A DNA stretch of 38,182 nt, taken from positions 1-38,182 of the IMG/VR virus record IMGVR_UViG_3300025109_000021. One strand, given 5' to 3'. Position 1 is the stretch's first letter, and the number at the start of each line of letters is the position of its first letter. The stretch comes from a virus. The translations under genes and the position numbers were made by a program. The notes beneath the pieces are model-generated. The model had not been told where the DNA came from and ran no database searches. It was given only the letters and a program-made list of their open reading frames with translations. Positions 2,112 to 38,182 of this stretch are shown piece after piece.

Positions 2112-3265
2112 AAGTTAAACCTTTCCCCAATCCACCGCACAACCGGCACAGCTTTCGAATTGCCAACCGCTCTATATGCTTGAGTGTCGCTGTAACCTGG
2201 TACGTTGATTAAGTAGTCATCTGGGAATCCCTGCAATCTAAGGGCTTCTATTGGTGTTATTCTTCGAACCTTCCGATCAACCGTGAACCCCGCTACACAC
2301 ATTTGAGGCAGTCCACCATCGTCCCCGCTTCTAAGTGTTGGTGACTTATTTTCAATAGCGTCTCTTCCTGCGTCGTTTTGTGTGAAGGCTATACAGGCTT
2401 CTTGGCCGCCGGCTCGTGTCCTTGCTGTAAGAGCTCCCATTTGCTCTATTCTGGCGTTTTGTTCTGAGTCTACGCCGTAAAGAATACAAGGCTGCCTTTG
2501 TCTTCCTTGTGCCGTATTGAGTGTGGGGCATTTTCCATCGTTTGATATTCTAGGAGTCCCGTCTTGGCTTCTTGGCTCAAAAACAAAAGTTTCCGATTCT
2601 ACGTCAAGCCGTCCGTGTCCGTGAGCATTTAGGCACATGGCGGTTTCGCCTGTGCTAGAAGGGCTTTTTCCAGGGCTGCGGGTAATTTCTTTCCTCTCTT
2701 CTCCGCCCTTCTCAATATCCCTTCGCAAGCCCTCTTGCTCAAATAAAACTTCTCCGGGACGTCTTGGGTCGCCACTAATATGTCCGACAAGAAAGATTCT
2801 TCGGCGTCTTTGCGGGACTCCGAAGTTTTGTGCGTCCAGTACCCGCCATGCCAGGCCATACCCGTATTGAGAAAACGACCAGAGGATTTGTTCGAAGACC
2901 GATCCGTTCCCCATTGAAAGCACCCCCGGCACATTTTCCCAGACAAACCACTCGGGGCGTACTGCTCCAACCAAGTCAATAAAATCGAGTGTGAGATTTC
3001 CTCTGTCATCATCAAATCCTTTCCTTTTTCCGGCTATACTGAACGCTTGGCAGGGGGTGCCCCCCACTATTAAGTCTGGTTTTTCAGGCATATCCCAGGT
3101 CTCCCACTGGGTAAGATCGCCATAATTTTTTATGTTTGGATAGTGATGTTTCAGTACCGCACAAGGGAACTTTTCTATTTCTGAAAGTCCTATACACTCC
3201 CAGCCCAAAGGCCCCCAGGCTACTGTAGCGGCTTCTATACCGCTGCATACCGAGAGGTATTTCAC
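2108..3265 (-). CDS. DNA (cytosine-C5) methyltransferase
   Basis: The enzyme (385 aa) transfers a methyl group from SAM to C5 of cytosine in DNA. Visible motifs in order are: SAM-binding motif I (SVCSGIEAA, residues 5-13), motif IV with the catalytic Cys (GGTPCQAFS, C72), motif VI WENVPG, motif VIII QRRRRIFLVG, a variable middle part likely holding the target-recognition domain (about 180-310), motif IX RRITPIEALRLQGFP and motif X YRAVGNSKAVPV. The start is GTG at 3265, overlapping the upstream stop (GTGA). No partner restriction enzyme is visible, so an orphan phage methyltransferase that shields phage DNA from host restriction is the likely role. A second, +1-shifted frame is open for about 127 codons inside this gene. 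Confidence 0.95.
   Translation of the reverse strand: MKYLSVCSGIEAATVAWGPLGWECIGLSEIEKFPCAVLKHHYPNIKNYGDLTQWETWDMPEKPDLIVGGTPCQAFSIAGKRKGFDDDRGNLTLDFIDLVGAVRPEWFVWENVPGVLSMGNGSVFEQILWSFSQYGYGLAWRVLDAQNFGVPQRRRRIFLVGHISGDPRRPGEVLFEQEGLRRDIEKGGEERKEITRSPGKSPSSTGETAMCLNAHGHGRLDVESETFVFEPRSQDGTPRISNDGKCPTLNTAQGRQRQPCILYGVDSEQNARIEQMGALTARTRAGGQEACIAFTQNDAGRDAIENKSPTLRSGDDGGLPQMCVAGFTVDRKVRRITPIEALRLQGFPDDYLINVPGYSDTQAYRAVGNSKAVPVVRWIGERFNL
2629..3012 (-). CDS. Possible overprinted ORF inside the methyltransferase gene
   Basis: A frame shifted +1 from the methyltransferase stays open from ATG 3012 (or ATG 3009) to 2629, about 127 codons. AAAGGA lies 4 bases before the first ATG and 7 before the second, so ribosome entry is possible. 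The product is basic; it contains TGMAWHGGYWTHKTSES, SFLSDILV and then FYLSKRACEGILRRAEKRG followed by KKLPAALEKAL. From memory, the pattern YLSxxACxGILRRAxxRGKxLP recurs in phage proteins of unknown function; I could not verify this. In the other frame the same bases encode motifs VI and VIII and then the poorly conserved linker. It may be a true second gene, or an open shadow kept by methyltransferase constraint. Confidence 0.45.
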   Translation of the reverse strand: MMTEEISHSILLTWLEQYAPSGLSGKMCRGCFQWGTDRSSNKSSGRFLNTGMAWHGGYWTHKTSESRKDAEESFLSDILVATQDVPEKFYLSKRACEGILRRAEKRGKKLPAALEKALLAQAKPPCA

Positions 3266-3870
3266 AGGCCCAACCTATCTTCTTCCCTGCGAAGTTTTCC
3301 CACAGCGCGTATTCCTCGGTGCTCTAGTTGGGCTATCCTTGTACTGCTACGGCCCATACTTCTTGCTATTTCTGCCTGAGACTGAACACCCCTGCCCCCC
3401 AGCCCCAACCTACGCCTGATTACTTCCGCACTTTTTGGGTGTATCCTGTCTAGTAAATTCTCCAGGTACTCAGCGTCTTCATGCTCTATAGCTACCGATT
3501 CGGGAGTCTGGTATTCGATCTGCTCAAACTGAGGCCCCGTTAACAGCCCGGCAGATATCTCATGGTCTTTGATGATGGTCTTATCAAGTGACCCCCCTTC
3601 TCTTCTTACCTGTTGGTTTAGTTCCAAGATCTCAGGAGGCATAATGTCTGAGAAAACAACTTTAAAGAATTCTTCTAGCCTTTCTATGAATTTTTTTGCG
3701 GCCCCATGTTTTATGTCAGAGGCGTAAGTCAAGTTAGATAGATCATAAAGCAGCCCGATACTCACCCCTATTTCTTTTGCCAAAAAAGGTACGCTCTTCC
3801 CCGTTCGCTGCGTGTAATCATGCAGGAATTTATTCTTTACTTTGGTTATCGTGACTACTTGTACACTCAT
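3262..3870 (-). CDS. Regulator with sigma-70 region 4-like C-terminal HTH
   Basis: This protein (202 aa) probably controls transcription. Residues about 145-197 fit sigma region 4: LLDRIHPKSAEVIRRRLGLG, then a helix-turn-helix with QAEIARSMGRSSTRIAQLEH, then a basic end. Region 4 normally contacts the -35 box. The N-terminal part (PFLAKEIGVSIGLLYDLS, about 27-44) resembles another HTH of Cro/C1 style. Region 2, which contacts the -10, is not visible, so it is not a complete sigma factor. The ATG at 3870 overlaps the MerR-like gene's stop (ATGA), and its own stop overlaps the methyltransferase start. Its place in the early operon makes a late-gene activator an attractive but unproven role. Confidence 0.7.
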   Translation of the reverse strand: MSVQVVTITKVKNKFLHDYTQRTGKSVPFLAKEIGVSIGLLYDLSNLTYASDIKHGAAKKFIERLEEFFKVVFSDIMPPEILELNQQVRREGGSLDKTIIKDHEISAGLLTGPQFEQIEYQTPESVAIEHEDAEYLENLLDRIHPKSAEVIRRRLGLGGRGVQSQAEIARSMGRSSTRIAQLEHRGIRAVGKLRREEDRLGL

Positions 3871-4280
3871 ATTCCTACCCCCACCGGGGGAAACATCCTG
3901 TCTACTTCCCGCCTCAAATGCAGCACTCTGAATTTTGTGTACTGGGCCTCGGTATTCTCATCGGTAACTACATCCCCGTTAAAGATCAGGATTCGATCAT
4001 CGTCAATTAAGAATGTAGTATCTATTAGAGGAGCAGAGAGCTGAGGCAAAAGGTTTCTCAACACATCCATGGTCTTACGAAGCCTTTGGATAGAAAACCC
4101 TTTACGCCTGAGAACCGCTGCCACTTTCAGCAAGAACAGATCAGTAAAGGTGTAGAGTCTGTACCGGCCCTTACGTCGATAAGAGGGCTTGATAAAGTTT
4201 GTCTTATCCCAGGACTGGACTTGCCGGTAAGACAGGTCCAGGATTTGCGTTACATCTTTGGGGACGAAAAAGCTTTTCAT
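3867..4280 (-). CDS. MerR-like helix-turn-helix regulator
   Basis: The first 70 residues of this 137-aa protein fit the MerR winged-helix fold: VTQILDLSYRQVQSWDKTNF, a basic wing (YRRKGRYRLYT), then FTDLFLLKVAAVLRRKGFS and IQRLRKTM. The remaining part is rich in beta-type residues and has no metal-binding cysteines, so no effector can be inferred. It overlaps its neighbours on both sides (ATGA at 4277-4280 and 3867-3870) and is directly followed by the sigma-region-4-like gene. The two regulators are therefore likely made together and may act on the phage's own promoters. Confidence 0.75.
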   Translation of the reverse strand: MKSFFVPKDVTQILDLSYRQVQSWDKTNFIKPSYRRKGRYRLYTFTDLFLLKVAAVLRRKGFSIQRLRKTMDVLRNLLPQLSAPLIDTTFLIDDDRILIFNGDVVTDENTEAQYTKFRVLHLRREVDRMFPPVGVGI

Positions 4281-4515: not shown

Positions 4516-4590
4516 AAAAAGAAACTGCGGGCTAGAGGTGTCGTTCCCCCCTCTGCACCGCTCACGATGCGAGGGTCAACTAGCCCGCAG
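4516..4590 (-). ncRNA. Structured RNA element or complex terminator
   Basis: On the minus strand a perfect 11-bp stem (CTGCGGGCTAG, 4590-4580, with CTAGCCCGCAG, 4535-4525) encloses a second stem CCCTC/GAGGG (4575-4571 and 4553-4549). This continues, past one unpaired A, into GCATCG/CGGTGC closed by a TGAG loop. One inner pair is U-G on the minus strand and would be an A-C mismatch on the plus strand, so the minus-strand RNA is the one that folds. TTTCTTTTT follows the outer stem directly. A plain terminator does not need the inner stems. It lies between the ssDNA-binding gene and the coiled-coil gene, where it could set the ratio of upstream to downstream expression or be a cis-acting or free small RNA. 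Confidence 0.7.
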
Positions 4591-5160: not shown

Positions 5161-6273
5161 TTAGGCTCCTTCCTCTGCAAACACTAAAGCTGCAGTTTCA
5201 TTTGCATTGATACTTTCACGGGGATCACTCTCAACAACAAGAGTTAATTCCCCCTCTTTCTTTTCACAAAGTTTAGCCACGTAGGGCTTACCTGCAATTT
5301 TCTCAAGCTGTGCCGGGGTCTTTAGCCTGGGGGTATAAGCATCAGTCCCAAGATCAGCCTCAATTACTTTCTCAACATCAGCTTTCCAAGATCTATTAGT
5401 TCTTTTGCGAACCATCTTGAATCCGTCGGGTACTTGACCTTCATCAGCTCTTACTCTTGCAAAAGACCAGACCTCTTTGGCCCACTCTTCAGCAATCGTA
5501 GCCGCTTTGAGTAGTCTGCCCATGTATGCAGGGTCAATCATGAGTTTAGGATTCTCAGAAACCTTCTCAATGACTTCCTTACTCAACACAGGACACATGG
5601 GCGCAGCAGGACACCATTTACAATGTTTCCCTGATACGATTGTCCCATCATCTGACAGGGCAATCTTAGCCTGACCCTCGATGGTTTTAGAAAGCTCTTT
5701 AAGCCTTGAGGCTTTGTGCTCCCAAGAGTTTACACCCCCGGCAATCCTGGGCTGGTAGATATGGTACTTGACCTTCCGTATCTTTAACCCCTTCACCTTT
5801 TTGAGAATCCCCAGGGCATAAATCATTAGCTGGTAGTTCATTTCTGCCGATACCGCCACACCCTGACCATACTTGAAGTCAATGATATGGAGCGTACCAT
5901 CCTGCTCTACTACCGCGCAGTCAAGCGTACCCCAGCACTGGTCAATGCCCGTATCCACCTTTTGCTCGATCAGAACATCCCCGCCAGTGTCAAAGACAAT
6001 ATCAGCAATGTAATCAGCGTACCCCTCGATATGCTTTAGCATCTCTTCGGGTACTGCATCAGGGTCAAACTCCCCATCCTCATATTCTGAGCGAAGAAGT
6101 TTCTCAGCCCACTCATGGGCCTGGGTCCCTTCAGCAGCAAAAGGAGAATCCTTTTCAGGGAAGACAGCTTCTACTCTCTCCCCCAATTGGATTGAGCCGG
6201 TGCAGATCATCCAGCGTGAGGAAGCAGACGGGGAGAGTCTTGCGTGTTCTCTCTCTGTGTGCTGTTCACTCAT
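5161..6273 (-). CDS. RecB/Cas4-like Fe-S nuclease (DUF2800-like)
   Basis: This 370-aa protein belongs to the PD-(D/E)XK nucleases of the RecB/Cas4 type and looks like the phage DUF2800 family. The active site is seen as GTLDCAV, then IIDFKYGQG (D-x-K), then QLMIYAL (Q-x-x-x-Y). One Cys near the N terminus (C24, SRWMICTGS) and a C-terminal cluster (C218-x2-C221-x5-C227) give the four-Cys pattern that holds a 4Fe-4S cluster in AddB, Dna2 and Cas4. I chose ATG 6273 because it overlaps the helicase stop (ATGA) and has GGGGGG 7 bases upstream; TTG 6291 has no such support. It probably trims or resects DNA ends together with the adjacent helicase and ssDNA-binding protein. Confidence 0.85.
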
Positions 6274-6902
6274 GCTACAGCCCCCCGGCAATCCTTAACA
6301 AAAGCCCCAAACTGATTCTCAGGGAGACTTGAAAGGTTCTTACATTCGTATTTACCCAGGATCTCAACAGCTTTGTCCTTCCCGGGTCCGTTCTTCACAT
6401 CGGTAAGAGCTTCGAGACAATCCTTGAGCTTGAATACTTTCTGGATACCACCGCACCGCTCCATAAAAGCCTGGTGAGCGTCTACAGGTAGATCAGAGAT
6501 TTTCTGCACTTCAAACTCTTGGAGTAAACCCTTGGCAGCTTCCATGTCATTAGCGTCACGATAAGACATTAAGGCAGCTTTGAGTTCTTCTACGGGTACT
6601 GGAGTTAGTTCCTCTCCAGACTCTTCAAGTAAAGCGCTTAACTCTTCAGGAGTTAACTGGGGCTCTTCCTCGCTTTTCCCAGCCGCTTCTGCTTCATCAG
6701 CGGCAATCTGGGCCTTAGTCCTGCGGGTCCTACGCTTTGGTTTGTCCTCTTCTGCTTTGCCCTCAGGCTCAACATCGATAACATCATCTGCGGGTTTAGT
6801 GCGGACCGCCTTAGGGGTAAAATTAGCCCAGCCTTCCACCGCATCAGCAATACGCTCAAAGGCATCAGCAATGCGCTCGATAGGTTCTTTTTCTTTACTC
6901 AT
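6270..6902 (-). CDS. Possible separate product from an internal in-frame start
   Basis: Codon 416 of the helicase gene is ATG (6902-6900), preceded by GAGAGGGAAG with normal SD spacing, and it lies exactly where the SNF2 domain ends. Translation from it would give a 210-aa protein beginning [20 protein letters not shown]. In many phages similar IERIADALE-type and TRRTKAQIA-type sequences are stand-alone small proteins (recollection, not checked). The sequence shows a plausible ribosome-binding site; whether it is used is inference. The alternative is a simple domain fusion. Confidence 0.4.
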
Positions 6903-8147
6903 AATTACTTCCCTCTCTTCAATAATTTGGGAAACGACTTCCTTTTTCTGGAGAGCGCGTTTCAATTGATACTGGTCTATTGACCCTTCTATGGTTAAAA
7001 ACTGGGCTAATACTTTATCTTTCTGCCCGATTCGGTGTACCCGGTCCACCGCTTGCATAATATCAGCAGGGGCCCAGGCACTTTCTATAAAAATTACACA
7101 AGACGCAGCAGTTAAAGTCAGGCCCGTTTTCCCTGCCTGAACATTGACAATAAAAAAGTCTAAACGCCCCGCCTGAAAGTCTTTAACTATCTCTTCTCTG
7201 TCCTGGGATTTAGTAGCGCCGGTCAGGGTGTCTACTTTGAAACCTGCCGCCATTAACTTCTCATCTACCGCCTCAATTACACCCCTATGGTGAGCGAATA
7301 CCAGGATAGGTTTTCCGGGCTGTTTCATATCAAGGATATGCTCAACAGCCAGAGGCACCTTACTCATGCCGTGATCGTGCATGATCTCCGGCAGGCCTAA
7401 GATAGATAACGGGCTGACTACTTTCCCTATCTCCTCAAGCGAGAATCCTTTCTCCCTCTTATCTACTGGAAGATCCAAGGATATTATCTGGTAGGTCTTG
7501 TCTGGTAGATCAGGAAGCACTTGTTCTTTAGTCAGACGAAAAGTATAGGGGGCTATGCTTTTTCTTAGTTCATCGAGGTTTGACGAGCCCGATACATCCA
7601 GGCTTCCCCCGGTCCAGGGGGCTTTCCATCCGGCACAATACTTCTTACCGAAAGCGTACCAATCCATCTTTATGATACGCATGGCATGGAGAAGCGGGAA
7701 AAGTTCTATAGGCCGGTTTGGGATAGGGGTTCCAGAGAGCGCCCAGACTTTTCCCGCATTTAGAATCCAACGGGTACAGGCTTTAGTGCGTTTAGCTTTA
7801 CCGTTCTTGAGATACTGGCTCTCATCGAGAACCAGCACAGCCCATCTTTTAGGTAGACGGTGCTCCATTTTAGCCGCGATATCATAATTGATAATCGTGA
7901 CCCGCACATCATAGCGGATAGTGCATTTGGTAGTGAGCACATGGTAAGTAAGATCAGTCCACTTCTCGATTTCCTGCTTCCAGACAAACTTGACTGAAGC
8001 CGGGCAGACTATAAGTACCTTGGAACCTTTAGGGAGGGAGGCTAAAGCACAAATTGTTTTGCCAAGCCCTTGATCTAAGGCGAGGATTGCTCTATCTTTC
8101 TTAGACAGCCAATCCACGGCTTTCTCTTGGAATCCGTACAGATTCAT
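6270..8147 (-). CDS. SNF2-family helicase with C-terminal extension
   Basis: Residues 1 to about 405 form a compact SNF2/SMARCAL1-type ATP-driven DNA translocase. Motif I is LDQGLGKT (about 24-31), motif [12 protein letters not shown], motif [14 protein letters not shown], motif [19 protein letters not shown] and motif [13 protein letters not shown]. Such enzymes remodel or anneal DNA at forks. The last 210 residues are different: a helical [18 protein letters not shown] segment, a basic/acidic linker ([20 protein letters not shown]) and two similar helical blocks ([16 protein letters not shown] and [16 protein letters not shown]). I took ATG 8147, which has AGGAAAG 8 bases upstream, rather than GTG 8174. 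It is the first gene of the leftward operon. An internal in-frame start at 6902 could make the C-terminal part alone. Confidence 0.9.
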
Positions 8148-8165
8148 AACAACATCTTTCCTATC

Positions 8166-8220
8166 CGTTTTCACGTTTTAGCGTTTATTTTGTATGTTGA
8201 TGTACGTTATAGTACGTTAA
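8166..8220. repeat. Direct repeats in the divergent control region (operator or iterons)
   Basis: Three 10-bp units lie head to tail at 8191-8200 (TGTATGTTGA), 8201-8210 (TGTACGTTAT) and 8211-8220 (AGTACGTTAA), one DNA turn apart. Further CGTT cores stand at 8166, 8174 and 8182, spaced 8 bp. The 10-bp units overlap both -10 elements. Sites on the same DNA face suggest cooperative binding of a small regulator, for example one of the HTH proteins in the window, or an initiator protein if this is also an origin. Confidence 0.55.
8184..8213 (+). promoter_or_regulatory. Possible rightward promoter overlapping the leftward -10
   Basis: TATAGT (8208-8213, 5 of 6) lies 18 bp after TTTATT (8184-8189, only 3 of 6). 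The start would be near 8220. This -10 shares bases with the leftward -10, so the two polymerases could not bind together. The weak -35 would call for an activator. Confidence 0.4.
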
Positions 8221-8237
8221 AGTCTTGCCAACGTCAA
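8209..8237 (-). promoter_or_regulatory. Strong leftward sigma70-type promoter for the replication operon
   Basis: On the minus strand TTGACG (8237-8232) and TACTAT (8214-8209) are separated by exactly 17 bp; each matches the consensus at 5 of 6 positions. Transcription would start near 8202, giving a leader of about 55 bases before ATG 8147. It is the only plausible promoter found for the whole leftward early operon. Confidence 0.75.
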
Positions 8238-8284
8238 TAGTTTTTGTTAAGGTTTTTTGTGTTGATAGGAGAATTAGTATTCTT

Positions 8285-9229
8285 GTGGTGGGTATATTTC
8301 AGATAGACGGCAAGATACCAAATCTTGCGCTTTTACAGATAGCCGCTTTTTATCTTTCAGAGGGTGTATATGTAGAGCCTTACAATTCTGAAAAGGTAGA
8401 AGATTATAGGTATGTATTTGCTTCTCAAATTTTTAATTTTTCTAAAACTCCTGAGCTACCTGTGAATTCACTGATCGGCGGGACGGGGTTTGACGTAGGG
8501 CTTAAACTTCCTGAAGAATATGAGCGGGCAAAAATTACAAAAGAAGCTTGGGAGTTGTACCCTAACTATGAACCCAACTTGGGATTCACTATGCGGGGGT
8601 GCCGCATGGCTTGTGATTTTTGTGTAGTCCCTAAAAAAGAAGGAAGGCCCGTGGGTTTTAATTCCCTCTCAGAAATTTTAGTTAAAGAGACTGATAAGTT
8701 AGTGCTATTAGATAACGACTTTTTTGGGGGGCCTTACTGGGAAGATGTTTGTAGAGAAATTATAGATCGAAAATTGAAAGTATCTTTTGCACAAGGGCTA
8801 AATCTTAGGCTTATAAATGAGCGCCAAGCGAGTTACCTTGCAAAGATAAAATTTAAGAACCAAGGGTTTACTTGCAACCAAGTCACGTTTGCGTGGGACA
8901 GATATAAAGACAAAAAAGTCGTAGAACATAAAATAGAATTGCTTTTTGCTGCAGGAATAAAACCTTACCGTATCCAGTTTTTTATACTGATAGGATTTGA
9001 TTCTTCCCACGAGGAAGATTTAGAAAGAATACTAACCATACGTAGGTGGAAGTGTGATGCTTATGTAATGCGCATGATGGAGCCCCACCACTATAAGTCC
9101 GAATATGATCTGCAATTGGCTAAACATCTGCAAAGGTGGGTAAACCGCCGACTAATAAAGGTTGTATCTTTTGAGGAATACTTAAAAGGTAGGAAGTTTG
9201 AATACTTGGAGAATATTAAATGTTTGTAA
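8285..9229 (+). CDS. Radical SAM protein
   Basis: This enzyme-like protein (about 314 aa) carries the radical SAM signature C106-x3-C110-x2-C113 in GFTMRGCRMACDFCVVP, the three Cys that bind a 4Fe-4S cluster for SAM cleavage. The N terminus (FQIDGKIPNLALLQIAAFY) resembles the B12-binding-like region that precedes the radical SAM barrel in many family members. Barrel strands with LVLLDNDFFGG and IQFFILIGFD follow. The substrate is unknown. The start is unsure: AGGAGA (8267-8272) stands 12 bases before GTG 8285 but 6 bases before an ATT at 8279, while TTG 8225 lacks an SD. The gene is visibly more A/T-rich than its neighbours, which hints at recent transfer. It is the first gene of the rightward operon. 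Confidence 0.85.
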   Translation: MVGIFQIDGKIPNLALLQIAAFYLSEGVYVEPYNSEKVEDYRYVFASQIFNFSKTPELPVNSLIGGTGFDVGLKLPEEYERAKITKEAWELYPNYEPNLGFTMRGCRMACDFCVVPKKEGRPVGFNSLSEILVKETDKLVLLDNDFFGGPYWEDVCREIIDRKLKVSFAQGLNLRLINERQASYLAKIKFKNQGFTCNQVTFAWDRYKDKKVVEHKIELLFAAGIKPYRIQFFILIGFDSSHEEDLERILTIRRWKCDAYVMRMMEPHHYKSEYDLQLAKHLQRWVNRRLIKVVSFEEYLKGRKFEYLENIKCL

Positions 9230-9417
9230 ACCCAAACAACATAGCTATCCCAGTGATAATCACTACTAGCGAGTTAGCAGAGCTTTTGAAAGTCAATGAA
9301 GTCACCATCCAAAGATGGTGTCGTCAGAGAAAAATCCCATTCTACCGGAGTGGATCTGATTATCGTTTTGACAAAAATGAAGTTCTGAGGACTCTAAAAA
9401 ATGCCGAACTTAAATGA
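9220..9417 (+). CDS. Small excisionase/MerR-type HTH protein
   Basis: This 65-aa protein is a single winged HTH of the excisionase (HTH_17) type: VIITTSELAELLKVNEVTIQ, RWCRQRKIPFYRSGSDYRFD, then KNEVLRTL. This fold binds DNA and is used by excisionases, plasmid partition factors and small regulators. No integrase is present in the window, so it is probably a regulator rather than an excisionase. ATG 9220 overlaps the end of the radical SAM gene, with GGAG 8 bases upstream. It is a candidate to bind the direct repeats at 8191-8220. Confidence 0.8.
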   Translation: MFVNPNNIAIPVIITTSELAELLKVNEVTIQRWCRQRKIPFYRSGSDYRFDKNEVLRTLKNAELK

Positions 9418-11596
9418 ATATCTGAAAGCCTATAAGAGATTGATCCCTTTAAAGGGAAAGAGGGCCACGTTAAAAGGCTGGCCTAAACTTCCTTTTGAGA
9501 AGTGCCTGCAACAGACCGAGTACCCAAACAATTTTGGCTGGGCGCTTGATGATTCTGATCTGGTACTAGACGTAGATCCCCGCAACGGCGGGATGGATGG
9601 TATAGAGAAGCTATCCAATGACTGCGGAATCGATTTGGTGGAGGCCACCAATGTCCGGGCTATATCCGGGGATAGCGGCCTCCACCTTATCTTTAAAAAA
9701 GATCCCGAATTCCCGGTCAAGTATAAGCTCCCTGCCTATAAAGGAATTGAGGTCTTATCCTTTGGGTCCTATATCGTAGGAGTGGGATCGATTCACCCGG
9801 ATACTAAAAAACCCTATATGTGGGACTACACTTTTGAATCTCTCAATGATGCCCCTGAAGTTCCAGAGGCTCTACTTAGTATTGTCGAGCGGGCTGAAGT
9901 AGCGGAGCAAAGTGGGCTTGAGAATTATGATGATAGTGAAAATACCCAATCGCGCTACCTTGATTATCTTGAGGGGGTAGGCCCCTGTTTCATGCAAGAT
10001 GATGTATCAAGTTACATTCTCTCGTTGCGAGGTAGAGACCTGGGCCTTTCCCCCCTCAAGACCTTGGACTGCTTATGTAAGTGGGACGAGGAGAACAATC
10101 CTAAATGGGGGCGCGATACTCTATATTCTAAAGTAGTTCATGCTTACCGCTATGGTAAATCCCCCAAGGGTTCTGCTAATCCCCGGGCTGTGTTTGAAGA
10201 GTCTGCCCTGGAGCCAGAGGCTAAACCTACCCCTATTGATGAGAACATAGACGAGTTGGTTTCCTACGGGAAGAACGCACCTGAAAATGCCAGGCTCTAC
10301 TTATCAAGAGAGTACCCCTGTGATGGGCTGAGATACCGCTACGGGCTTTACTATGCCTACGATTACGATCAAGGTATCTGGGAATGTATCGATAATAAAA
10401 CCCTTCAACACCAGATCCAGGGGGCTATGGAGTATTCAGGTGTCTCCCAGAACGCTATCAATTCCACTATCACAGCGGTAGACCGTAAGGTATATGGGAT
10501 CAATTTCAAGTTTGATGAGACCAAGATAGCCTTTGCTGATGGAATCTTGGACCTGAAACACCCTGAGAGTCCTGTTGTGCATGAGTTTGATATCAAGCAC
10601 CAGGTATGTGGAAAGCACCCCTTCCCCTATAGCTTGAAGGGTAAATGCGACCAATGGCTCAGGTTTCTTGATGAGATCTTTGAAGGAGACCAGGAGAGGG
10701 TTGATCTTCTGCAGGAATGGTTTGGTTACAATCTCGTACCCCCCACGGATCACCAGAAAATTATGGTGTTTGTGGGTGCGAGTCGAGCGGGGAAGGGTAT
10801 TATCTCAAGGGTACTGCGTTCAGTAGTAAGGCCCGAGAACTTCGCCGGGATATCTCTCTCCTCCCTGGTCAACGATTTCGGGCTGTCCATGCTGGTAGGT
10901 AAAAAGACTGCGGTGATTGCTGATGCCCACGGGGTGTCTCGGGGGCAGCAGGGAAGGGCCAAAGAGATCCTGCTTAATATCTCAGGCGGGGATTATGTGG
11001 CGGTTAACCGAAAGAGAGAGTCTTTTCTTTCCCTGAAGCTACCTACCAAACTCACTTTGGTAGCCAATGAGGTCCCTTCTTTTTCTGATGGGTCTGATGC
11101 CCTTGCCAATAGATACCTGATACTCCCTTTTAGAAAGTCTTTCGCAAACGAGGAAGACCCTTTTCTCGAGCGCCGGTTACTCGGAGAACTGCAGGGAATC
11201 CTTGGATGGGCAGTAGAAGGATTGAAAAGACTTTGTATCCAGGGGCGGTTCTCTTCTGTACTGAGCGCGAAAGAAGAGCTGGCAGAGATCAAAGCCGCGA
11301 ACAACCCGGTAGCAGAATTCATTAAGGAGTATATTCGTTTTGATAAAAAAGGCACTGTTGAAGTGCATGAAGTCTACGATGTTTACCTTGAATACTGCCG
11401 GGATTTTGGCAGAGCGCCTATGTCCTCCCACCGTTTTGCTTCTTTGTTCTATAGGAATTTACTTTCTTACGGCATTAAGAAGAGCCAGAGCAGAGGAGGG
11501 GGGAAAAGGACTTATGTTTTTGAAGGGATTAAACTAGAGAAGGACCAGCCTTTTCATGTGATAGACGGGGGCTGGGTTGCTGAACAGAAAGGATAG
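9401..11596 (+). CDS. PrimPol primase - SF3 (D5-like) helicase fusion
   Basis: This 731-aa replication protein joins a primase-polymerase to a superfamily 3 helicase. The PrimPol domain (about 1-165) shows the metal-binding D57-V-D59 in DLVLDVDPRNGG, then SGDSGLHLIFK and SFGSYIVGVGSIHP. A linker with a D5_N-like part follows (about 260-440). The helicase domain has Walker A GASRAGKG (about 458-465), Walker B TAVIADAHG (about 502-510) and motif C LTLVANEVPS (about 551-560), then a winged-helix-like end (VHEVYDVYLEYCRDFGRAPM). It should open the origin and prime synthesis for the polymerase encoded on the other arm. It overlaps the HTH gene by 17 bp; SD is GAGGA. Confidence 0.93.
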   Translation: MPNLNEYLKAYKRLIPLKGKRATLKGWPKLPFEKCLQQTEYPNNFGWALDDSDLVLDVDPRNGGMDGIEKLSNDCGIDLVEATNVRAISGDSGLHLIFKKDPEFPVKYKLPAYKGIEVLSFGSYIVGVGSIHPDTKKPYMWDYTFESLNDAPEVPEALLSIVERAEVAEQSGLENYDDSENTQSRYLDYLEGVGPCFMQDDVSSYILSLRGRDLGLSPLKTLDCLCKWDEENNPKWGRDTLYSKVVHAYRYGKSPKGSANPRAVFEESALEPEAKPTPIDENIDELVSYGKNAPENARLYLSREYPCDGLRYRYGLYYAYDYDQGIWECIDNKTLQHQIQGAMEYSGVSQNAINSTITAVDRKVYGINFKFDETKIAFADGILDLKHPESPVVHEFDIKHQVCGKHPFPYSLKGKCDQWLRFLDEIFEGDQERVDLLQEWFGYNLVPPTDHQKIMVFVGASRAGKGIISRVLRSVVRPENFAGISLSSLVNDFGLSMLVGKKTAVIADAHGVSRGQQGRAKEILLNISGGDYVAVNRKRESFLSLKLPTKLTLVANEVPSFSDGSDALANRYLILPFRKSFANEEDPFLERRLLGELQGILGWAVEGLKRLCIQGRFSSVLSAKEELAEIKAANNPVAEFIKEYIRFDKKGTVEVHEVYDVYLEYCRDFGRAPMSSHRFASLFYRNLLSYGIKKSQSRGGGKRTYVFEGIKLEKDQPFHVIDGGWVAEQKG

Positions 11597-16113: not shown

Positions 16114-16574
16114 GTTTCACACTCCGGGCAACGAGTCATGCCGTCAAAAAACTCAGCTTCAAACTCATGCTTGCACTTGTCGCAGGAGATTAGCTCAGAT
16201 ACCGCCCGAGCCCCTGGTGCGATAGGGATAGGCTCTTTCTTCCCGCCAATAAAAACTTTTTCTACTGACCTGCCAAGGCCATAGGCCCCAGCTACCGCGG
16301 CAAGAAATTTCCATATCTCAGGAGGCAGGGCAATCTTGTGTATGGTGCCGTTCTGCCACATTAACGCAAACTCATAGACCCCGTGATTCCATACCATGAC
16401 AAAGAGAATAAAGAGCATGAAGCACGGTCTCCAGCTAGAGGCCAGAAAACCGCCCCCCGCTTCAACCAAGGCCATTTGTCTCTGTTGCCTGCCCTTCTCA
16501 TGCCCTGAGTCTGGCAGCAACCCGGACACTCTTTTAACTATAGGTTTGAGTAAACTTAAAGGGTTAAAATTCAC
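16098..16574 (-). CDS. Holin (3TM, gene-transfer-release type) with C-terminal zinc ribbon
   Basis: The middle of this 158-aa protein fits the 3TM holin family: SSWRPCFMLFILFVMVW, a central segment VYEFALMWQNG, then LPPEIWKFLAAVAGAYGLGR and SVEK. Such proteins form inner-membrane holes at lysis. After about residue 128 comes a zinc ribbon (CDKCKHEFEAEFFDGMTRC, then PEC), which the usual family members lack as far as I recall. The start is GTG 16574, overlapping the 2669-aa gene's stop (GTGA) with a G-rich SD. Because it is late-expressed while the lysin is in the other operon, lysis timing could be set here. Confidence 0.7.
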   Translation of the reverse strand: MNFNPLSLLKPIVKRVSGLLPDSGHEKGRQQRQMALVEAGGGFLASSWRPCFMLFILFVMVWNHGVYEFALMWQNGTIHKIALPPEIWKFLAAVAGAYGLGRSVEKVFIGGKKEPIPIAPGARAVSELISCDKCKHEFEAEFFDGMTRCPECETWISQ

Positions 16575-19500
16575 CGATCCCCCCTTTGCAGTTTCTTCTC
16601 TTCGATCTCCTGCTTGATCTGACCAAGCTTTACTTTACCTTTCCCTACGGCCTCAAAGTACCTTTTCAAGCTCCGCGCTCTTGAAGAAATTCTTTTGTGG
16701 CGTTCGGGCCAATCGGGAGAAAGGATATCTTTACGAGTGATATTTTGCAGTTCATCCATAAAAGCTTTAAATTCTTTGGTAGCTCGAAGCCCCTTATGCT
16801 TGGAGGCTTCTTCTAGCATCCCTTGAACAGCACGATTAGAGAAAGGGTTGGCAGTACCGAGAATGCCAAGGCGCTTATACATAATGTCTTCAGCCCTTGC
16901 TTTACCTGTTTCACCAATGCTTGAAATATCAAGCATAGCCCTTCCGACTTTGGGAACCCATTTATCTACAATATGGTCTGCATCTCGAGGGTCAACAGTA
17001 TCTATACCAAACTTCTCTCTTGCCAGGTAGTAGGCCTCTCTTGAAACCTTGGAAGCTTTGGATATGTTGCGCTCAGAGACAAGCTTAGGATCAGTGGGGG
17101 AACGGTAGTAGGACCCAGGGTGGAATTTGTACCCCAAAGGAACTTCGATTACAGACTGCATAGGCCCACCTACACTAGTAACACTAGGCATGGCAGAACC
17201 CATCATCAGAGAAGCGGCTTCCTGCCAATCTAAATCCCCCATCTTTTCACCCCTGAAATATGTCTCGGCAATCTCACTTGCAGCCGAAGCTATAGGGCCT
17301 ATGGTATGAGCTTTGGGTAAGTTGATCCATTGAATCCAACCGCCTGACGCTTCCACCATCCAACGAGGAGCGGGGATATTCCAGAAGACATGCTTCCAAT
17401 ACCAGGGCATTTCTTTGAACTCATCTTCTCGCTCCGCATCAGCCACCATAGAACGCTCAAGCATTAACAGCGGGATTTGAGACCATAGGACCAATCCCAG
17501 GTAAGAAGAAGGATCTCTTGCTATCGCATCAATGTGAGAGCCAATCCCCTTGGTTTGAGCAACAAGAAAACCCGTAACAGTATTCATCTTCTCGGTCCAG
17601 GTTCCCCCGGTTCTGAAATTGAGGATATTGGCAGAATCCGAAGCTCCGCTCTGAAGGGTTTCTCTCCTACCCAGTCCTGCAGCTTCAGCATCTTCAATCC
17701 CACGTTCTAACTCAGGAAGCCTGTTGATCGTTTCGGATATCTCAAGCCCTCCCCGTAGAATTTTCCCTAAACCCTTCGCCCAGTTCGTAGGATCGAGGAT
17801 AAGAAACTTCTTTTCCTTAGCCGCGAACTTCATGGATTCTCTCACAGCATTTTCAAAATCTTTTTGGGTATGTATGCCCTCATGCCCTACTGCACCCCCG
17901 CCAAGGGTCAATTCTTGGCTTCTTTTAGCCGCTTTTGAGAGGGCTTTAGGCATGGTGTATAGGAAATGCTTGCCGAGCATGTAAGGGGCCGCGAGAAACC
18001 CCAAGCCCCCGGCTACCTTCTTACGCTTGGACACTAAAGGCGCATTCTGAAAATCGGAGATACCGTTTCGTATCCAGAAATCAGGAAGTAAGGTAATGAG
18101 AGGTTTCCATACTTTACGGATATACCAGGGCAGGAAAGGCATTTTGAGGTTGAGTCTTGGGCCCACTAACTCAAACCCTTCTTGGATCTCAGGGGCAAAG
18201 GACCAGTAATCTTTGACCCCTTTCCTCACAACAGGAATAGAACCCGGCTCCCCTTTATGGACTTTTCGCCCGAAGTGGCCAACAGGTTCTCCGCTTACCC
18301 TGTGCGCCATTTCGATCATGTCTACAAAATATGAACGAACATCATTCTTGTGGATCTCGTTTAAAGTTCGGTAGGTATTGAGAAGCATATTGCTGTAGAT
18401 GTTCTGTACCGGCTTATCTGAACCTTCAAGTCTTCTGATAATATCTTTGTACTTATCAGACCCTTGCGGGGACTGGGTTGCCGCAGAGACCTCATCAGAA
18501 AAAGAACTATCTGGGTCCATCAAACGGGTGAGCATGAAATACTGTTGGTTACTAGATTTCACAACCTTGTAAAACTCTTCTGTATAAATATCTGCATCCA
18601 CCAACATCCTAAAAAGCCCGTCGAACCATTTGTCAATGAACTGTCCAGCTTCTCTCATCTTAGCGTATTCAGGGTCTTGCTTTGCGGAATCAACAAGTCT
18701 TGAGGCCCGGGCAAAATCGGTCTCTTCCCCTACCCCCATACCAACGATACGGGCTTTATTCCACTGGCCATCCCGGATCTCTTCGATTGTAGGGATTAGA
18801 TCAGGAAGTACCTGTTCTATTTTTCCCACTAGCCTATCTACTTTCTTACTGCTCAAAGAGCTTGTATTTGATATGGATGTTCGGAGATTCGCGATCATGT
18901 CCCCGAAAGGTTTATAGACATTGGCACTGTCAAGAGCTTGCCCGGAGTCAACCAGAGCGTAGAGTTCCCCCAGAGCAGTATTTACAATGCTAGATATGTT
19001 GGGGTCTTTGAGCGCGTAAAGGTTCCCGATGATGGGGTCAACCGCATTACCAAGAAGGGCTAAGTTATTTTGCTCTACCTTCTCTAAAACATGAAGAGAC
19101 ATTTGGATATCGGCAGACTTGTCTAATTTCTCAACCAGGTTCTTTTCCCCGATTCGTCCAAAGAGTTGAAATACCTTTGAGAAAGGCTCTGTTACCTGGC
19201 GGGTGTAGTCATAAGAGACAAGCCCTTTATCAACCATCTGCTTGGCAATAGAAGCTACTCCCTCTTTAGCAGTCATCTTGTCGTGCATGATCTTGAGCGG
19301 ATCACCCGCGTGAGCTTGACTCATTCTTGTAGCGGGCTCTCCAGCTAATTCGGCCAGGTCCCCGAAAGCGTCTAGGAGTGCATGGGCTTTATTGGTAAGC
19401 CTCTGGGCAAAGAAAGACCGAGACTTCCAAGAGGGCTCAGATGGTGTTCTACCATCGATCACATCCTGGGTAGATACGTGGGTAGTTCCTTCGTCAGAAG

Positions 19501-22500
19501 TAACATAGTGGCGCAGATCCTCACTGACCCCTCTTATATCAGTCAGCGCGTTCTTACCAAGTTTCTGAGGAAGTGCTTTTTCAAAATAGGTAGCAAACCC
19601 CGGAGCCCTTTTCTTAGCTTCCGCAGGATTGAGGATATAGGCCGTAAAGAATTCGGATAGCCCTTCCTGCACAATCCGCGTTTCCACATCAGGGAAAGCA
19701 TTTGGGTCTGCTTGATACTTCGCGTTGATTAGATCCTGGGTTTCAGTAGACAGGAAGTTATGAAGCTCCTTGCCGTGATTCTTTACTACTGTAGGATTGA
19801 GAATATGGTGCCTCTGGTCAAGAAGTCGCCCCTGCGCATAGAGAAACCCTCTCAGGTCTCCTTGCTCGAAGTAGGCTTGCCCTGTGCCGTGATCGTCTAC
19901 AAAACCAAAGCCCCAATCTTTTGCTCTCACACTCTTAGGGGGTTTGCCCCAGCGGATAGGAGAACCAATAAGTTTGGTTAAAGCCTTCTGCATTTTCCTG
20001 GGTTCTTTAGGCCTCCCCGTTTTATTAGTGGGGGCGGTAGGTATCTCATGCTCAATCACTGGAGAATCTTTGAAGGTGTGGCGGGTTTGGAACAGAGTGT
20101 TGGAAGCTTGATAGTCCCCTTTTTCTACTGTTATAAAATGTTTATCGGGGGCCCCGTTGTAGTATCCTAAAAATTCCCCCCCGTCTAAAGCCAGTCCTTC
20201 TTCAAAAGATTGCGAATCGTCATATTCGTAGTAGAAAGTAAGGTCCTCTCTTCTAAACATAACAACATCCCCGGTGTCTTTACTCCGAACAGCTACGTAT
20301 TCGGGAATATCTGAGGCTTGTTCGTACCCCATTTCTTTAAAATCGCCAAAGGGGACTATTTCAGCAGAGGGAGCCCCCGCAAACTGACTTACTATAATAG
20401 AGTAAAGATCTGATCTATTTCTTGTCCGAAAGGCTTCTCGAACTTTGTTGATAATTTCATAAGCCTGTGGGTATTCTTTTATTTTTAGCATGTTTTCAAT
20501 TCGCCAATCAAAATCACTCCTTTCACCAAAAAGGCCGACCAGCTCATCTGCAAAACCCCCAAAATATTCAGTGTCGAAAAACTGCTTTTCTTGTTCGGAT
20601 AGGTGGGGTGCTACCTCTTCTAGTATACCTACATATCTTTGCCATTCAGAAAAAGAATAAGTGTCTAAGCCTCGACTAAGAAATACCAACACTCTTTTTA
20701 GAAAGTCCAGGTCTTTTACATTTTTAACTCCTCCCGCGTCTTTAATTATGCTGTCAACTAACTCCTTAACTCCGTGGGGACTAGAGGCCCCTAAAGGTTC
20801 AGGAAACATCTGGGTAAATACGCCTGATTCTTCCCTATGTTTTCGCGCCTCGGCATACGCGGCTTCCGCGCGTTCTACATCCTCTTCGGTAATTGGAGCT
20901 TCCAAAATCTTTCGCGCTTTTTCAGAACTAGAGGGCTCTTCATGCCGAGGGTGAGAAGGAAGTATCTCCCCAGTCTTGTTGTAGTGACGTATGGCTTTTT
21001 CTTCTTCAGGAGTAAAGGACTTCATCTGGCTTAGTGCTTTACCCCCGGTCTCTTTCCAATTGTTGTACCTATCTAATAGGGGATTAGCTTTGAGGGGCTG
21101 CGATTCAGCTTTGGTCCTGCGCTCAATCACATCAGCCATGACAGCGTTTTTCATTGTCTCAGGCATCAAGCCTTTTGTATCAAACCCAAAGGCATCAGCG
21201 AACTTGTTATAGAGTTTCCCGAGGAACTGAACCATATCGTGAAAGATTCTTTTCAGCGCCCCTCTTGGCTCTTTATGTCCTGCCATGAAGCCTTCCCAAT
21301 CTTCCGCGAAAGCTTCTTTATTTTCTGTAGTCCAAACTCCGTCTTTTCCTACGCCATAAGATTTATTCATCAAGCTTTTTTGAGAAGGAGTCAATATGTT
21401 CTCAAGCAAATGCCCCGACTCATGGATCAGGGTTGTATAGTCCCCGGTCTCAAAGGCTTTAATTAAACCCCCTACTTCCCTGGGAGTAAAAGAGCCCATA
21501 GCCTTACCATCTGTTGACTGTGCGCTTTCAAGGGATACACTATCAAAGTATTCTTGGGTAGTCTCTACAACCCCCGCCTTTACTGCTTGCTCTGCTAGAA
21601 CTTCATGTAAAAGGGCAAAAGCTTTTATTTCGGTATCTGAAAACTGATCAGCAGGAAAAGATTCTCTAGCTCTTTTCTCAAAAGATACCCCTTCAGGAGT
21701 CTGGCTCTCCGCCCCGCCTAAAGCTTCTACGTGGTCTTCAGCTTTGTCTTTTAATACCTCCCGAGGGTTAGTTTGGAATAGCCGCTCTTCGGTCTTCCCT
21801 GGTACTGGAGGATTCTCGGTATCTAACTGTTCGAGGGCATCTGAAATCTGGAGATCTTTCCTTTTCTTTTGAAGAACTTTAACTTTCGTTTCTTCACCCG
21901 GCACATTCTCATGATCCTTGATATCTTCAGTTATCTCAGCAATCTCAGGATTTACCTTTACCTCTTTAGGCTCTGCGGTTTTAGTGGATTCTTCTTTCTT
22001 AGCCAGTACCGCTTCCCACTTGGCTTTGAAGCCTTCATCTTGCATAGCATAAGCCATTTGGGGATTAGTCAGCCCGTCCACCATGATATCTGTAATCTCT
22101 TCATCGGTCTTTAAAGGCAGGATCTCATTGATATACTTTTCTGGATCTGCTAGGAATAGCTCAGAGGTAAGGTTTGTCTCTTTAGTTTCCAAGGTCTCAG
22201 GTATTTCCTCTTGCAAAGACTCCTGCTCTACCTCGGGGGCCGCTTCAGCCCTTTTCATCATGTAGGCAAGTTCTTGTTCGAGTTCCCCAAACCCCCCAGA
22301 AGTATCGGAATCGGAATCAATTACATCCCCGATGATATCTGTACCCGCGGTCTGCTTGGCCTCTTCCTCGAAATTCTCAAGTACTTTGGCCTCCGAAATC
22401 TTCTCTTGCTCAACCCGGCCCTGTAGTGCTTCCGCATCAGCCGCTTGTAGCCCGCCAGGGCCGAATCTATACTCATTAAAAGCTTTATTCTCGGAGAGCT

Positions 22501-24580
22501 GTTCTTGTTCTACTCTTTCGGCCAGGGAGGTCAAGTCTTCAGGCTGAACCCCTTCGGGGGTGGGTTCTTCTTGTTCAGGGGAATACTCTCGTTTATTCTG
22601 GTTTTCCTGCGCCCTTTCATCTTCAAACCTTTTAGCCAGGGTAATTAGGTCTTCGGGCGAAGATTCCCCTATGGCTATGTCCTCGTCCGGGGGGTTTACA
22701 AAAGCTTCTGGACCGGCTTTACGCTGCTCAATAATGAATTGAATATCAGAGCGAATCGTATCCATATCCTCGCTTAAAGGCATATCTAGTAGATCGCTCT
22801 GCGCCACTACTTCATCAAACAATCGATCCAGTTGGTTAAGATCCTCTTCTTTCATGGCGATAAGCTGTGAGTACCGCTGAACTGGATCTTTAGGCATTGT
22901 TACGGTTAAAAGGTTTTGAGCTTTCTTAAAAGCCCCTTTCTCTTTAACCTTTCCTAAGTGTTGTGTTATCTCTATACCCACACTTAAAGGACCGGAACCA
23001 ACCAAGGCCGCGATCATAGTCTGGGTTCTGACTTTATTGAAAGCCTCTCCGTAGGTCAGTTCTCTCGGAGCTAAACCAAGGGAGGTATCATACTGGGAAC
23101 CGATCTGAGTTTGAAACGTTTCCTGTCCTATTTCCCCCGCTACATCAAAACCTACTTTACCTGTGACTCGGGGTATTGTGTTCTCTGCTACCCAAGTTAA
23201 ACTTTTTCCTGCTGCCGATTTGGTCACGGCTTTGGAATAAAGTTCAGGCAGCATTTTCTTAAAAGCTGCACCAGGTAAAGCGATCAAAGAGTTAGTAACA
23301 AAGTCTGCAAGCCCTTCAGTGCCCGCGGTCCATGCGGCTTTTTCTATGGCTGCCTGCTCTACCGTGATACCCGTATCTAGTATCCTCTGCTTGTCTTCTG
23401 CCCACTTCTCTTTGGTATAGTTAGGGTCTTTCTCCTGTAGCTTCCCAAGATAACTATATAAAGTATTGTCATAATCCGATCCAAAGACTAGCGGGATAGT
23501 GGCTAAAGCGGAAGTAGCCCCAAAAGCTAATGCTCCTAAAGTGGGGGACTTGGTGTACTTGTATGCTAAATACCCCACCGGGGCACCCGCAGCAAGAGAA
23601 GGCCAACTAGAGCCCGCGCTTTGCACCGCCTCTGCTACCTCTTTAGTGGTTGTGGTGTCTTCGGGGAATAAATAGTCCCCCAGGTATTTGCCTCCGGTAG
23701 CCCCTAACATCCCGCCTACAGCAAGTCCAAGAGGCCCGCCCCCAAGCATAAAACCCGCGGCACTACCTAATCCTCCGCCGATTATCTCACTGACAGGGAT
23801 ATCTACATCTTCATATTTTTTGGGAATCTTTACAGAGTGCTTATCTTTCTCTTGCTGACCAACACCTTCAGTCCAATTTTTATAGCCTAAAAGGTTTGCA
23901 AGCCAGTCACCTTCATCATCCACAAACTCTACTTCCCCGGTGAGAAGCTGTTTTACCCCCCTATTAGCTGCATAAATCTGTTTAGTGCCCTCATCCACAT
24001 ACCCAGGGGCTTGTTGGGCAATAGCCCCAAAGGAACCAATAAGATCCCCTGCCCGACTGTTCACGTCAAAGAACCAGCCTTCATCCTTTTCCGCATCGAT
24101 CTTTTTAATGTTCTCTTGCTCAGGAGTTAGGGGCTTTGGTGCGGAGGGGGTAAGAGAGGGGATCGAGAATCCAAAATCTGAGTCATCTTGCTTTGCGCTA
24201 GACGGGGATAGTGACTGAATAGAAAAGCCTGCCCCCTCATTATCCTGAGGAGTAAGAGTGGGTACTGAAAAGCTGAACTCTTCAGAATCTTGAAGCCTCA
24301 ATTCTCCTATATCTTTAGTCCTTTGCTCCGCATCTGCTACTGCTTCTTCAATACTCAAAAATTCTCCTACGTGTTTATTTACTCCACGGTAAAATAGGTC
24401 TGTGGCTTCATCATCTGAGCGCCTTACCCCATCTACTATAGTGGGTATATTATAAGCCCTTTTACCTTGGCCTACATCTGCCTCTACAGTTATGGTCTCC
24501 TCTGTGGAGAAAGTGTTATCTGAATTTCTCAGTATGGGTTTATGTATGTTGCTACTGGGCAGGAAGCTTGAGTTTGCCAT
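16571..24580 (-). CDS. Giant virion/ejection protein with zincin domain (large polyvalent protein)
   Basis: This is the largest gene in the window (2669 aa). The N terminus has the NIPTIVDGVRRSDDEATDLF motif often seen in phage giant proteins, three FSxPxLTP-type repeats (about 100-150), and a glycine/alanine-rich hydrophobic stretch (about 265-365). Three degenerate repeats lie at about 650-735. A zincin-like protease site H1053-E-x-x-H1057 (TLIHESGHLLENIL) is followed by EAFAEDWE, which may supply the third ligand. A second helical motif with EGLSEFFTAYILNPAEAK follows, and the last 500 residues resemble LPD38-type polyvalent domains. By position, third of three large late genes, it is likely packaged and injected with the DNA, like P22 gp16. 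SD is GGGGGG. Confidence 0.8.
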   Translation of the reverse strand: MANSSFLPSSNIHKPILRNSDNTFSTEETITVEADVGQGKRAYNIPTIVDGVRRSDDEATDLFYRGVNKHVGEFLSIEEAVADAEQRTKDIGELRLQDSEEFSFSVPTLTPQDNEGAGFSIQSLSPSSAKQDDSDFGFSIPSLTPSAPKPLTPEQENIKKIDAEKDEGWFFDVNSRAGDLIGSFGAIAQQAPGYVDEGTKQIYAANRGVKQLLTGEVEFVDDEGDWLANLLGYKNWTEGVGQQEKDKHSVKIPKKYEDVDIPVSEIIGGGLGSAAGFMLGGGPLGLAVGGMLGATGGKYLGDYLFPEDTTTTKEVAEAVQSAGSSWPSLAAGAPVGYLAYKYTKSPTLGALAFGATSALATIPLVFGSDYDNTLYSYLGKLQEKDPNYTKEKWAEDKQRILDTGITVEQAAIEKAAWTAGTEGLADFVTNSLIALPGAAFKKMLPELYSKAVTKSAAGKSLTWVAENTIPRVTGKVGFDVAGEIGQETFQTQIGSQYDTSLGLAPRELTYGEAFNKVRTQTMIAALVGSGPLSVGIEITQHLGKVKEKGAFKKAQNLLTVTMPKDPVQRYSQLIAMKEEDLNQLDRLFDEVVAQSDLLDMPLSEDMDTIRSDIQFIIEQRKAGPEAFVNPPDEDIAIGESSPEDLITLAKRFEDERAQENQNKREYSPEQEEPTPEGVQPEDLTSLAERVEQEQLSENKAFNEYRFGPGGLQAADAEALQGRVEQEKISEAKVLENFEEEAKQTAGTDIIGDVIDSDSDTSGGFGELEQELAYMMKRAEAAPEVEQESLQEEIPETLETKETNLTSELFLADPEKYINEILPLKTDEEITDIMVDGLTNPQMAYAMQDEGFKAKWEAVLAKKEESTKTAEPKEVKVNPEIAEITEDIKDHENVPGEETKVKVLQKKRKDLQISDALEQLDTENPPVPGKTEERLFQTNPREVLKDKAEDHVEALGGAESQTPEGVSFEKRARESFPADQFSDTEIKAFALLHEVLAEQAVKAGVVETTQEYFDSVSLESAQSTDGKAMGSFTPREVGGLIKAFETGDYTTLIHESGHLLENILTPSQKSLMNKSYGVGKDGVWTTENKEAFAEDWEGFMAGHKEPRGALKRIFHDMVQFLGKLYNKFADAFGFDTKGLMPETMKNAVMADVIERRTKAESQPLKANPLLDRYNNWKETGGKALSQMKSFTPEEEKAIRHYNKTGEILPSHPRHEEPSSSEKARKILEAPITEEDVERAEAAYAEARKHREESGVFTQMFPEPLGASSPHGVKELVDSIIKDAGGVKNVKDLDFLKRVLVFLSRGLDTYSFSEWQRYVGILEEVAPHLSEQEKQFFDTEYFGGFADELVGLFGERSDFDWRIENMLKIKEYPQAYEIINKVREAFRTRNRSDLYSIIVSQFAGAPSAEIVPFGDFKEMGYEQASDIPEYVAVRSKDTGDVVMFRREDLTFYYEYDDSQSFEEGLALDGGEFLGYYNGAPDKHFITVEKGDYQASNTLFQTRHTFKDSPVIEHEIPTAPTNKTGRPKEPRKMQKALTKLIGSPIRWGKPPKSVRAKDWGFGFVDDHGTGQAYFEQGDLRGFLYAQGRLLDQRHHILNPTVVKNHGKELHNFLSTETQDLINAKYQADPNAFPDVETRIVQEGLSEFFTAYILNPAEAKKRAPGFATYFEKALPQKLGKNALTDIRGVSEDLRHYVTSDEGTTHVSTQDVIDGRTPSEPSWKSRSFFAQRLTNKAHALLDAFGDLAELAGEPATRMSQAHAGDPLKIMHDKMTAKEGVASIAKQMVDKGLVSYDYTRQVTEPFSKVFQLFGRIGEKNLVEKLDKSADIQMSLHVLEKVEQNNLALLGNAVDPIIGNLYALKDPNISSIVNTALGELYALVDSGQALDSANVYKPFGDMIANLRTSISNTSSLSSKKVDRLVGKIEQVLPDLIPTIEEIRDGQWNKARIVGMGVGEETDFARASRLVDSAKQDPEYAKMREAGQFIDKWFDGLFRMLVDADIYTEEFYKVVKSSNQQYFMLTRLMDPDSSFSDEVSAATQSPQGSDKYKDIIRRLEGSDKPVQNIYSNMLLNTYRTLNEIHKNDVRSYFVDMIEMAHRVSGEPVGHFGRKVHKGEPGSIPVVRKGVKDYWSFAPEIQEGFELVGPRLNLKMPFLPWYIRKVWKPLITLLPDFWIRNGISDFQNAPLVSKRKKVAGGLGFLAAPYMLGKHFLYTMPKALSKAAKRSQELTLGGGAVGHEGIHTQKDFENAVRESMKFAAKEKKFLILDPTNWAKGLGKILRGGLEISETINRLPELERGIEDAEAAGLGRRETLQSGASDSANILNFRTGGTWTEKMNTVTGFLVAQTKGIGSHIDAIARDPSSYLGLVLWSQIPLLMLERSMVADAEREDEFKEMPWYWKHVFWNIPAPRWMVEASGGWIQWINLPKAHTIGPIASAASEIAETYFRGEKMGDLDWQEAASLMMGSAMPSVTSVGGPMQSVIEVPLGYKFHPGSYYRSPTDPKLVSERNISKASKVSREAYYLAREKFGIDTVDPRDADHIVDKWVPKVGRAMLDISSIGETGKARAEDIMYKRLGILGTANPFSNRAVQGMLEEASKHKGLRATKEFKAFMDELQNITRKDILSPDWPERHKRISSRARSLKRYFEAVGKGKVKLGQIKQEIEEKKLQRGDR
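22451..22473. repeat. Copy 2 of the exact 23-bp dispersed repeat
   Basis: Identical to 1291-1313 and in the same orientation. Here it is read as EYRFGPGG, in a different reading frame from the polymerase copy, within the linker between degenerate repeats of the 2669-aa protein. Confidence 0.85.
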
Positions 24581-37861: not shown

Positions 37862-38182
37862 TTGACAAACTTCACAATCAATCCCCCTACAGAAGCGCAA
37901 AGGGTCATTGTGGCCGCGGTCTTCGCAAAGACCCACGCCTTGCCTTCCTCTTTGCCAACCTTCTTGGCCTCGTTAACCTGGAAAATGTGCATTTCTGTAG
38001 TAAGCCGATCCACTGCATTAGCTAATTTATCGCCCACACTAATCATCCTTTCGAATTCCTTTTCAGTCCTATCCTTGTGATTGGTCAAACTAATGAGTAG
38101 GCCTTGAACTCGCTCCTTTAAAGTGGCAATACATTTTTCTGAATCCGCAACCTGTCTAACCAGGTTATCTATTCGTTTAGTC
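37858..38182 (-). CDS. Coiled-coil/TM protein, cut by the right edge
   Basis: The frame has no stop back to the window edge; the first possible start inside the window is TTG 38088, but the open codons upstream encode a clear coiled coil (RIDNLVRQVADSEKCIATLK), so the true start is probably outside. At least 107 residues are visible: heptad helices, then a C-terminal membrane segment (KTAATMTLCASVGGLIVKFV). The helix-plus-C-terminal-anchor plan resembles XhlA-like and other phage lysis or membrane proteins, but no specific family is assured. Confidence 0.7.
   Translation of the reverse strand, partial: TKRIDNLVRQVADSEKCIATLKERVQGLLISLTNHKDRTEKEFERMISVGDKLANAVDRLTTEMHIFQVNEAKKVGKEEGKAWVFAKTAATMTLCASVGGLIVKFVK

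Follow-up and report, generated by a model that had tools for sequence, protein, structure and literature searches.

The stretch of viral DNA analysed here (38,182 nucleotides in all, henceforth 'the window') contains a pair of operons that point away from each other across a short AT-rich gap, and the question that this locus raises is what the gap does: whether it simply carries two back-to-back promoters, whether it also holds an operator through which a phage protein acts on both sides, or whether it is a decision switch or an origin of replication.

A sole divergent junction between two operons

The gap at 8148–8284 is the only divergent junction within the window (Table 1). With a GC content of 32%, against 47% for the window as a whole, it is the most AT-rich intergenic gap and shares the minimum GC found for 136-bp stretches. 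An earlier reading, made from the sequence alone (the 'sequence-only reading'), had marked out a region of 72 bp that does lie in this gap; the gap itself is wider, at ~137 bp, and extends from the helicase gene, for which comparison with a homologue makes the ATG at 8147 the most likely start, to the start of the radical SAM gene at 8279–8285. It is because of this position—sole divergent junction, lowest-GC tie—more than because of element scores that promoters are likely to lie here; on these grounds 8148–8284 is well supported as a predicted divergent promoter/operator region, and we infer promoter activity in both directions. There were no Rfam matches across 7900–8600, and the rightward leader folds no better than shuffled sequences.

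To the left, the operon runs through genes for an SNF2 helicase, a DUF2800 exonuclease, an Enc34-type SSB, a MerR-like protein, a sigma-region-4-like protein, a C5 methylase and DNA polymerase A; to the right, through those for a radical SAM protein (phrog_9298), an HTH_17 protein and a Prim-Pol/D5 primase-helicase. Replication genes are therefore present in both. Three other viral contigs, 99.9% identical, come from the same phage. They lack the gap region and continue for as much as 9.2 kb past the right end of the window (position 38182; L008 1–9186), where they carry genes for a terminase large subunit and tail fibre; the whole genome, of which the window is a fragment, measures at least 47 kb. 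A single 2669-aa ORF (16571–24580) occupies 8 kb of this fragment.

Three further features of the operons can be recorded. Near the point at which its homology begins, the radical SAM gene lacks an ATG; its start may be an unusual ATT at 8279, since an AGGAG at 8267–8271 lies 7 nt from this codon and 13 nt from the GTG at 8285. The 202-aa protein encoded at 3262–3870 in the leftward operon has a match to sigma-70 region 4 towards its C-terminal end, with none to Pfam region 2, and could redirect the host RNA polymerase. Positions 4525–4590, which separate the SSB gene from the next leftward gene, contain an inverted repeat with perfect 11-bp arms (CTGCGGGCTAG/CTAGCCCGCAG) around a second stem; read as minus-strand RNA this segment folds with -43.5 kcal/mol (z -3.1), has no significant Rfam match, and may serve inside the operon as a structured leader or as a site of processing.

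Table 1. Positions in the window of the gap, its elements and the neighbouring genes
Feature	Position	Strand	Basis
Divergent intergenic gap, 32% GC	8148..8284	.	sole divergent junction; lowest-GC tie
Three 10-bp direct repeats	8191..8220	+	best 10-bp-lag identity in window; Tandem Repeats Finder
Five CGTT cores (8166, 8174, 8182, 8205, 8215) and one TGTT (8195), single strand	8166..8218	+	tetramer clustering
Leftward -35, TTGACG	8232..8237	-	sequence, promoter scan
Leftward -10, TACTAT, predicted start ~8202	8209..8214	-	score 9.30, window rank 14
Rightward -10, TATAGT, overlapping the leftward -10, without -35, predicted start ~8220	8208..8213	+	window rank 129
Alternative rightward promoter, TTGCCA-17-(TGT)TAAGGT, predicted start ~8260	8225..8253	+	score 9.31
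SNF2 helicase, first gene of leftward operon	6270..8147	-	start set by homologue comparison
Radical SAM protein (phrog_9298), first gene of rightward operon	8285..9229	+	homology
65-aa HTH_17 protein, candidate ligand of the repeats	9220..9417	+	Pfam/NCBIfam, fold
Prim-Pol/D5-type primase-helicase, rightward operon	9401..11596	+	domain matches
MerR-type HTH protein, leftward operon, second candidate regulator	3867..4280	-	domain matches

Predicted promoters on both strands

Promoter scores were calculated with approximate E. coli frequencies, a matrix that may not fit the host of this phage. On the minus strand, TTGACG and TACTAT stand 17 bp apart and form a plausible predicted sigma-70-type promoter. 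The sequence-only reading had called it strong: its elements are indeed present, but the score is an ordinary one, ranking only 14th in the window, and the best leftward score has p = 0.07 against dinucleotide shuffles of the gap. The scanner found fewer promoter-like sites than in shuffled sequence (17 versus 24.3).

The weaker rightward promoter proposed to share this -10 is borne out as far as the overlap goes, TATAGT and TACTAT having five positions in common; it has, however, no convincing -35 at 15–19 bp and is outscored by a separate candidate, TTGCCA-17-TAAGGT, which equals the leftward promoter in score, is preceded at its -10 by TGT, and has a predicted start just upstream of the AGGAG.

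The overlapping, pseudo-symmetric boxes have -7T and -11A reciprocally paired at 8209 and 8213, and the gap looks like a fresh example of an already known promoter type, although a pair of equal quality overlaps in 83% of shuffles, which is the chance expectation. The two predicted starts, 8202 and 8220, are 18 bp apart, within the 7–25 bp range of the bidirectional class and at the commonest start spacing of known bacterial bidirectional promoters with reciprocal -7T/-11A (PMC10268837; PMC12825309). The likeness to acrA/acrR and soxS/soxR, described in the same papers, extends to the overlap of -10s on both strands and to the placement between divergent genes. It differs in that the phage starts are only predicted, the rightward box has no -35 and faces a better separate candidate, and the leftward +1 (8202) is a C, with A at 8201 and 8203; the rightward +1 (8220) is an A. 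A -18T is present for the leftward predicted start and absent for the rightward one.

Polymerases facing the two ways would overlap with either rightward promoter, so the mutual exclusion that had been proposed is, as regards binding, a fair inference; at bidirectional promoters polymerase cannot occupy both orientations simultaneously (PMC12825309). That the overlap by itself makes a switch does not follow, because basal activity at the measured promoters is too low for either direction to affect the other unless one side is activated (PMC12825309). MerR-type proteins can confine polymerase to a single orientation, and a MerR-type gene is present in the leftward operon of this phage.

Direct repeats and a CGTT array across the -10 boxes

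The three 10-bp repeats that had been reported over both -10 boxes are present on the plus strand as TGTATGTTGA (8191–8200), TGTACGTTAT (8201–8210) and AGTACGTTAA (8211–8220), neighbouring copies matching at 7/10 and 8/10 positions. Their identity at a lag of 10 bp (15/20) is the top value in the 38-kb window and has p = 0.005 against dinucleotide shuffles of the gap when the lag is fixed at 10, rising to p = 0.066 when any lag of 5–25 is allowed; Tandem Repeats Finder reports an array at 8202–8223 with a score of 37, a value inside the spread of scores for eight other small arrays elsewhere in the window. The repeats are real yet modest.

The further CGTT cores noted beside them, at 8166, 8174 and 8182, are likewise there, and five same-strand CGTT in 54 bp make up the window's most extreme cluster among all tetramers. 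With both strands counted, none of 100 shuffled versions of the window exceeded four, and a comparable cluster was not found in the 9 kb of the same phage past the window. Taken with the 10-bp repeats, this array across the -10s looks like an operator.

The alternative that survives best is that there is no operator here, only two ordinary back-to-back promoters (TTGACG-17-TACTAT and TTGCCA-17-TAAGGT), with the repeats a by-product of AT-richness and of -10-like TANNNTA words. Such words occur at 8203, 8208 and 8213, making the repeats themselves -10-like, and the equal scores of the two promoters and the p of 0.066 with any period point the same way; the CGTT cluster, however, reaches well beyond the -10s (8166–8185), and neither its rank nor the leading lag-10 score is what this account would lead one to expect. 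We regard it as possible, at clearly less than even odds.

No relative close enough for promoter conservation to be judged was found by a distant DNA search and tblastn of phage records, or among viral and genome contigs; at the protein level, this module's best relatives share ~30–37% identity, too little for promoters to be compared. A conserved partnership across the divergent layout was considered and rejected, relatives of the radical SAM gene lying in one-directional operons in the annotated phages examined. The exact double repeat, GTACGTTANAGTACGTTA, is also present in three viral contigs whose gene content is different, which by our rough, uncomputed estimate is not above chance for 17 fixed bases in such a collection. 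In a viral contig of other gene content (L018, 328–377), a non-coding tandem ACGTTACAGT array with an exact 10-bp period lies beside a terminase-like gene.

A winged-HTH protein as candidate ligand

The 65-aa HTH_17 protein of the rightward operon is a tentative candidate as ligand of the 10-bp repeats, one that we would put below an even chance. It passes PF12728 (49.4 bits, cut-off 27) and the excisionase-type NCBIfam model TIGR01764 (47.7 bits, cut-off 28.8) but fails the NCBIfam HTH_BldC cut-off (26.7 versus 77 bits). Its best solved relatives by sequence are nonetheless BldC–DNA complexes (6amk, E 0.009), and BldC is also the best match by fold (Foldseek probability 1.00, E 0.04, TM 0.72 on the target) for a structure predicted from the single sequence (mean pLDDT 79). 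Arg30 and Lys36 of BldC are matched by R32 and K38 of the phage protein, whilst the wing residues differ; the PDB alignment spans the same residues.

BldC lines up head to tail on direct repeats, and the tracts that it protects are spaced by one helical turn (PMC5859096); related head-to-tail assemblies have been described for RdfS and lambda Xis (PMC11963761). The parallel in the phage is a short winged-HTH protein together with an AT-rich promoter region whose direct repeats follow one another at roughly one helical turn. It is an imperfect one: the protein is ~26–28% identical to BldC, under the family cut-off and with a different wing, its binding is only predicted, and the repeat unit is 10 bp in the gap as against 9 bp for BldC. 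Read on the minus strand (TTAACGTAC / ATAACGTAC / TCAACATAC), the repeats are compatible with the BldC motif AATTXXXX(C), an AT-rich tract with a C 4 bp downstream, a consensus whose looseness keeps this from being a strong test.

The proposals of an origin and of a decision switch

The sequence-only reading had also suggested that the locus could be an origin, for which its AT-richness, the direct, iteron-like repeats and the adjoining replication genes can be cited; no positive evidence for one was found. Typical iterons, however, are longer than 10 bp, and no DnaA-box match was found in the gap. GC skew is negative to ~8 kb, positive to ~15 kb and then negative, changing sign at each of the two places where the genes change direction; on the coding strand it is positive in every gene tested, whichever strand the gene lies on, and no skew switch independent of gene direction was found in the window, itself a genome fragment. 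We therefore rejected GC skew as an origin signal, being explained by gene direction, a step that removes evidence without disproving an origin; that the gap is or includes one seems very unlikely.

Divergent early promoter regions are known in phages, and the locus resembles them in its gene layout and in its AT-rich gap between two early-type operons; it differs in that its repeats are direct rather than dyad operators, and in that the window proteins scanned included neither a recognised CI-like repressor nor a recognised integrase. The least probable proposal, that overlapping promoters decide between the replication operon and the radical SAM operon, can draw on the shared -10s, the repeats that span both and the three HTH genes of the phage, but the Prim-Pol/D5 primase-helicase of the rightward operon makes the contrast misleading and the proposal unlikely, because an either/or choice between operons that both hold replication genes would split one replication machine. 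Also against it, promoters that were tested at basal activity did not compete through overlap by itself (PMC12825309), and the scanned proteins showed no such repressor or integrase.

Discussion

The explanation that we prefer, at a probability of roughly one half, is that 8148–8284 is the divergent promoter/operator of a podovirus-like phage, with the repeats serving as an operator for a phage winged-HTH protein that balances both operons. The leftward sigma-70-type promoter would drive the helicase, exonuclease, SSB, MerR-like, sigma-region-4-like, methylase and polymerase genes, and the radical SAM, HTH_17 and primase-helicase genes would start at either TATAGT or TTGCCA-17-TAAGGT; polymerase binding would be mutually exclusive in both cases, and strong activation of one direction could lower the other. 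The ligand would most likely be a phage winged-HTH protein whose monomers line up head to tail, each taking one helical turn, and for this role the HTH_17 protein is the prime candidate. Its binding would result in autoregulation and a balance of the two operons, not an all-or-none choice. A more specific proposal, in which BldC/Xis-like monomers assemble head to tail across the common -10, one subunit per turn, and the reach of that assembly over the CGTT array determines the ratio between the two replication operons, we consider doubtful.

Should the repeats not bind the 65-aa HTH_17 protein, the gap would be an ordinary divergent promoter region. If they do, the locus would offer a simple phage example of a head-to-tail winged-HTH assembly controlling a common -10, and an excisionase-like phage protein with no recognised integrase beside it would gain a definite function.
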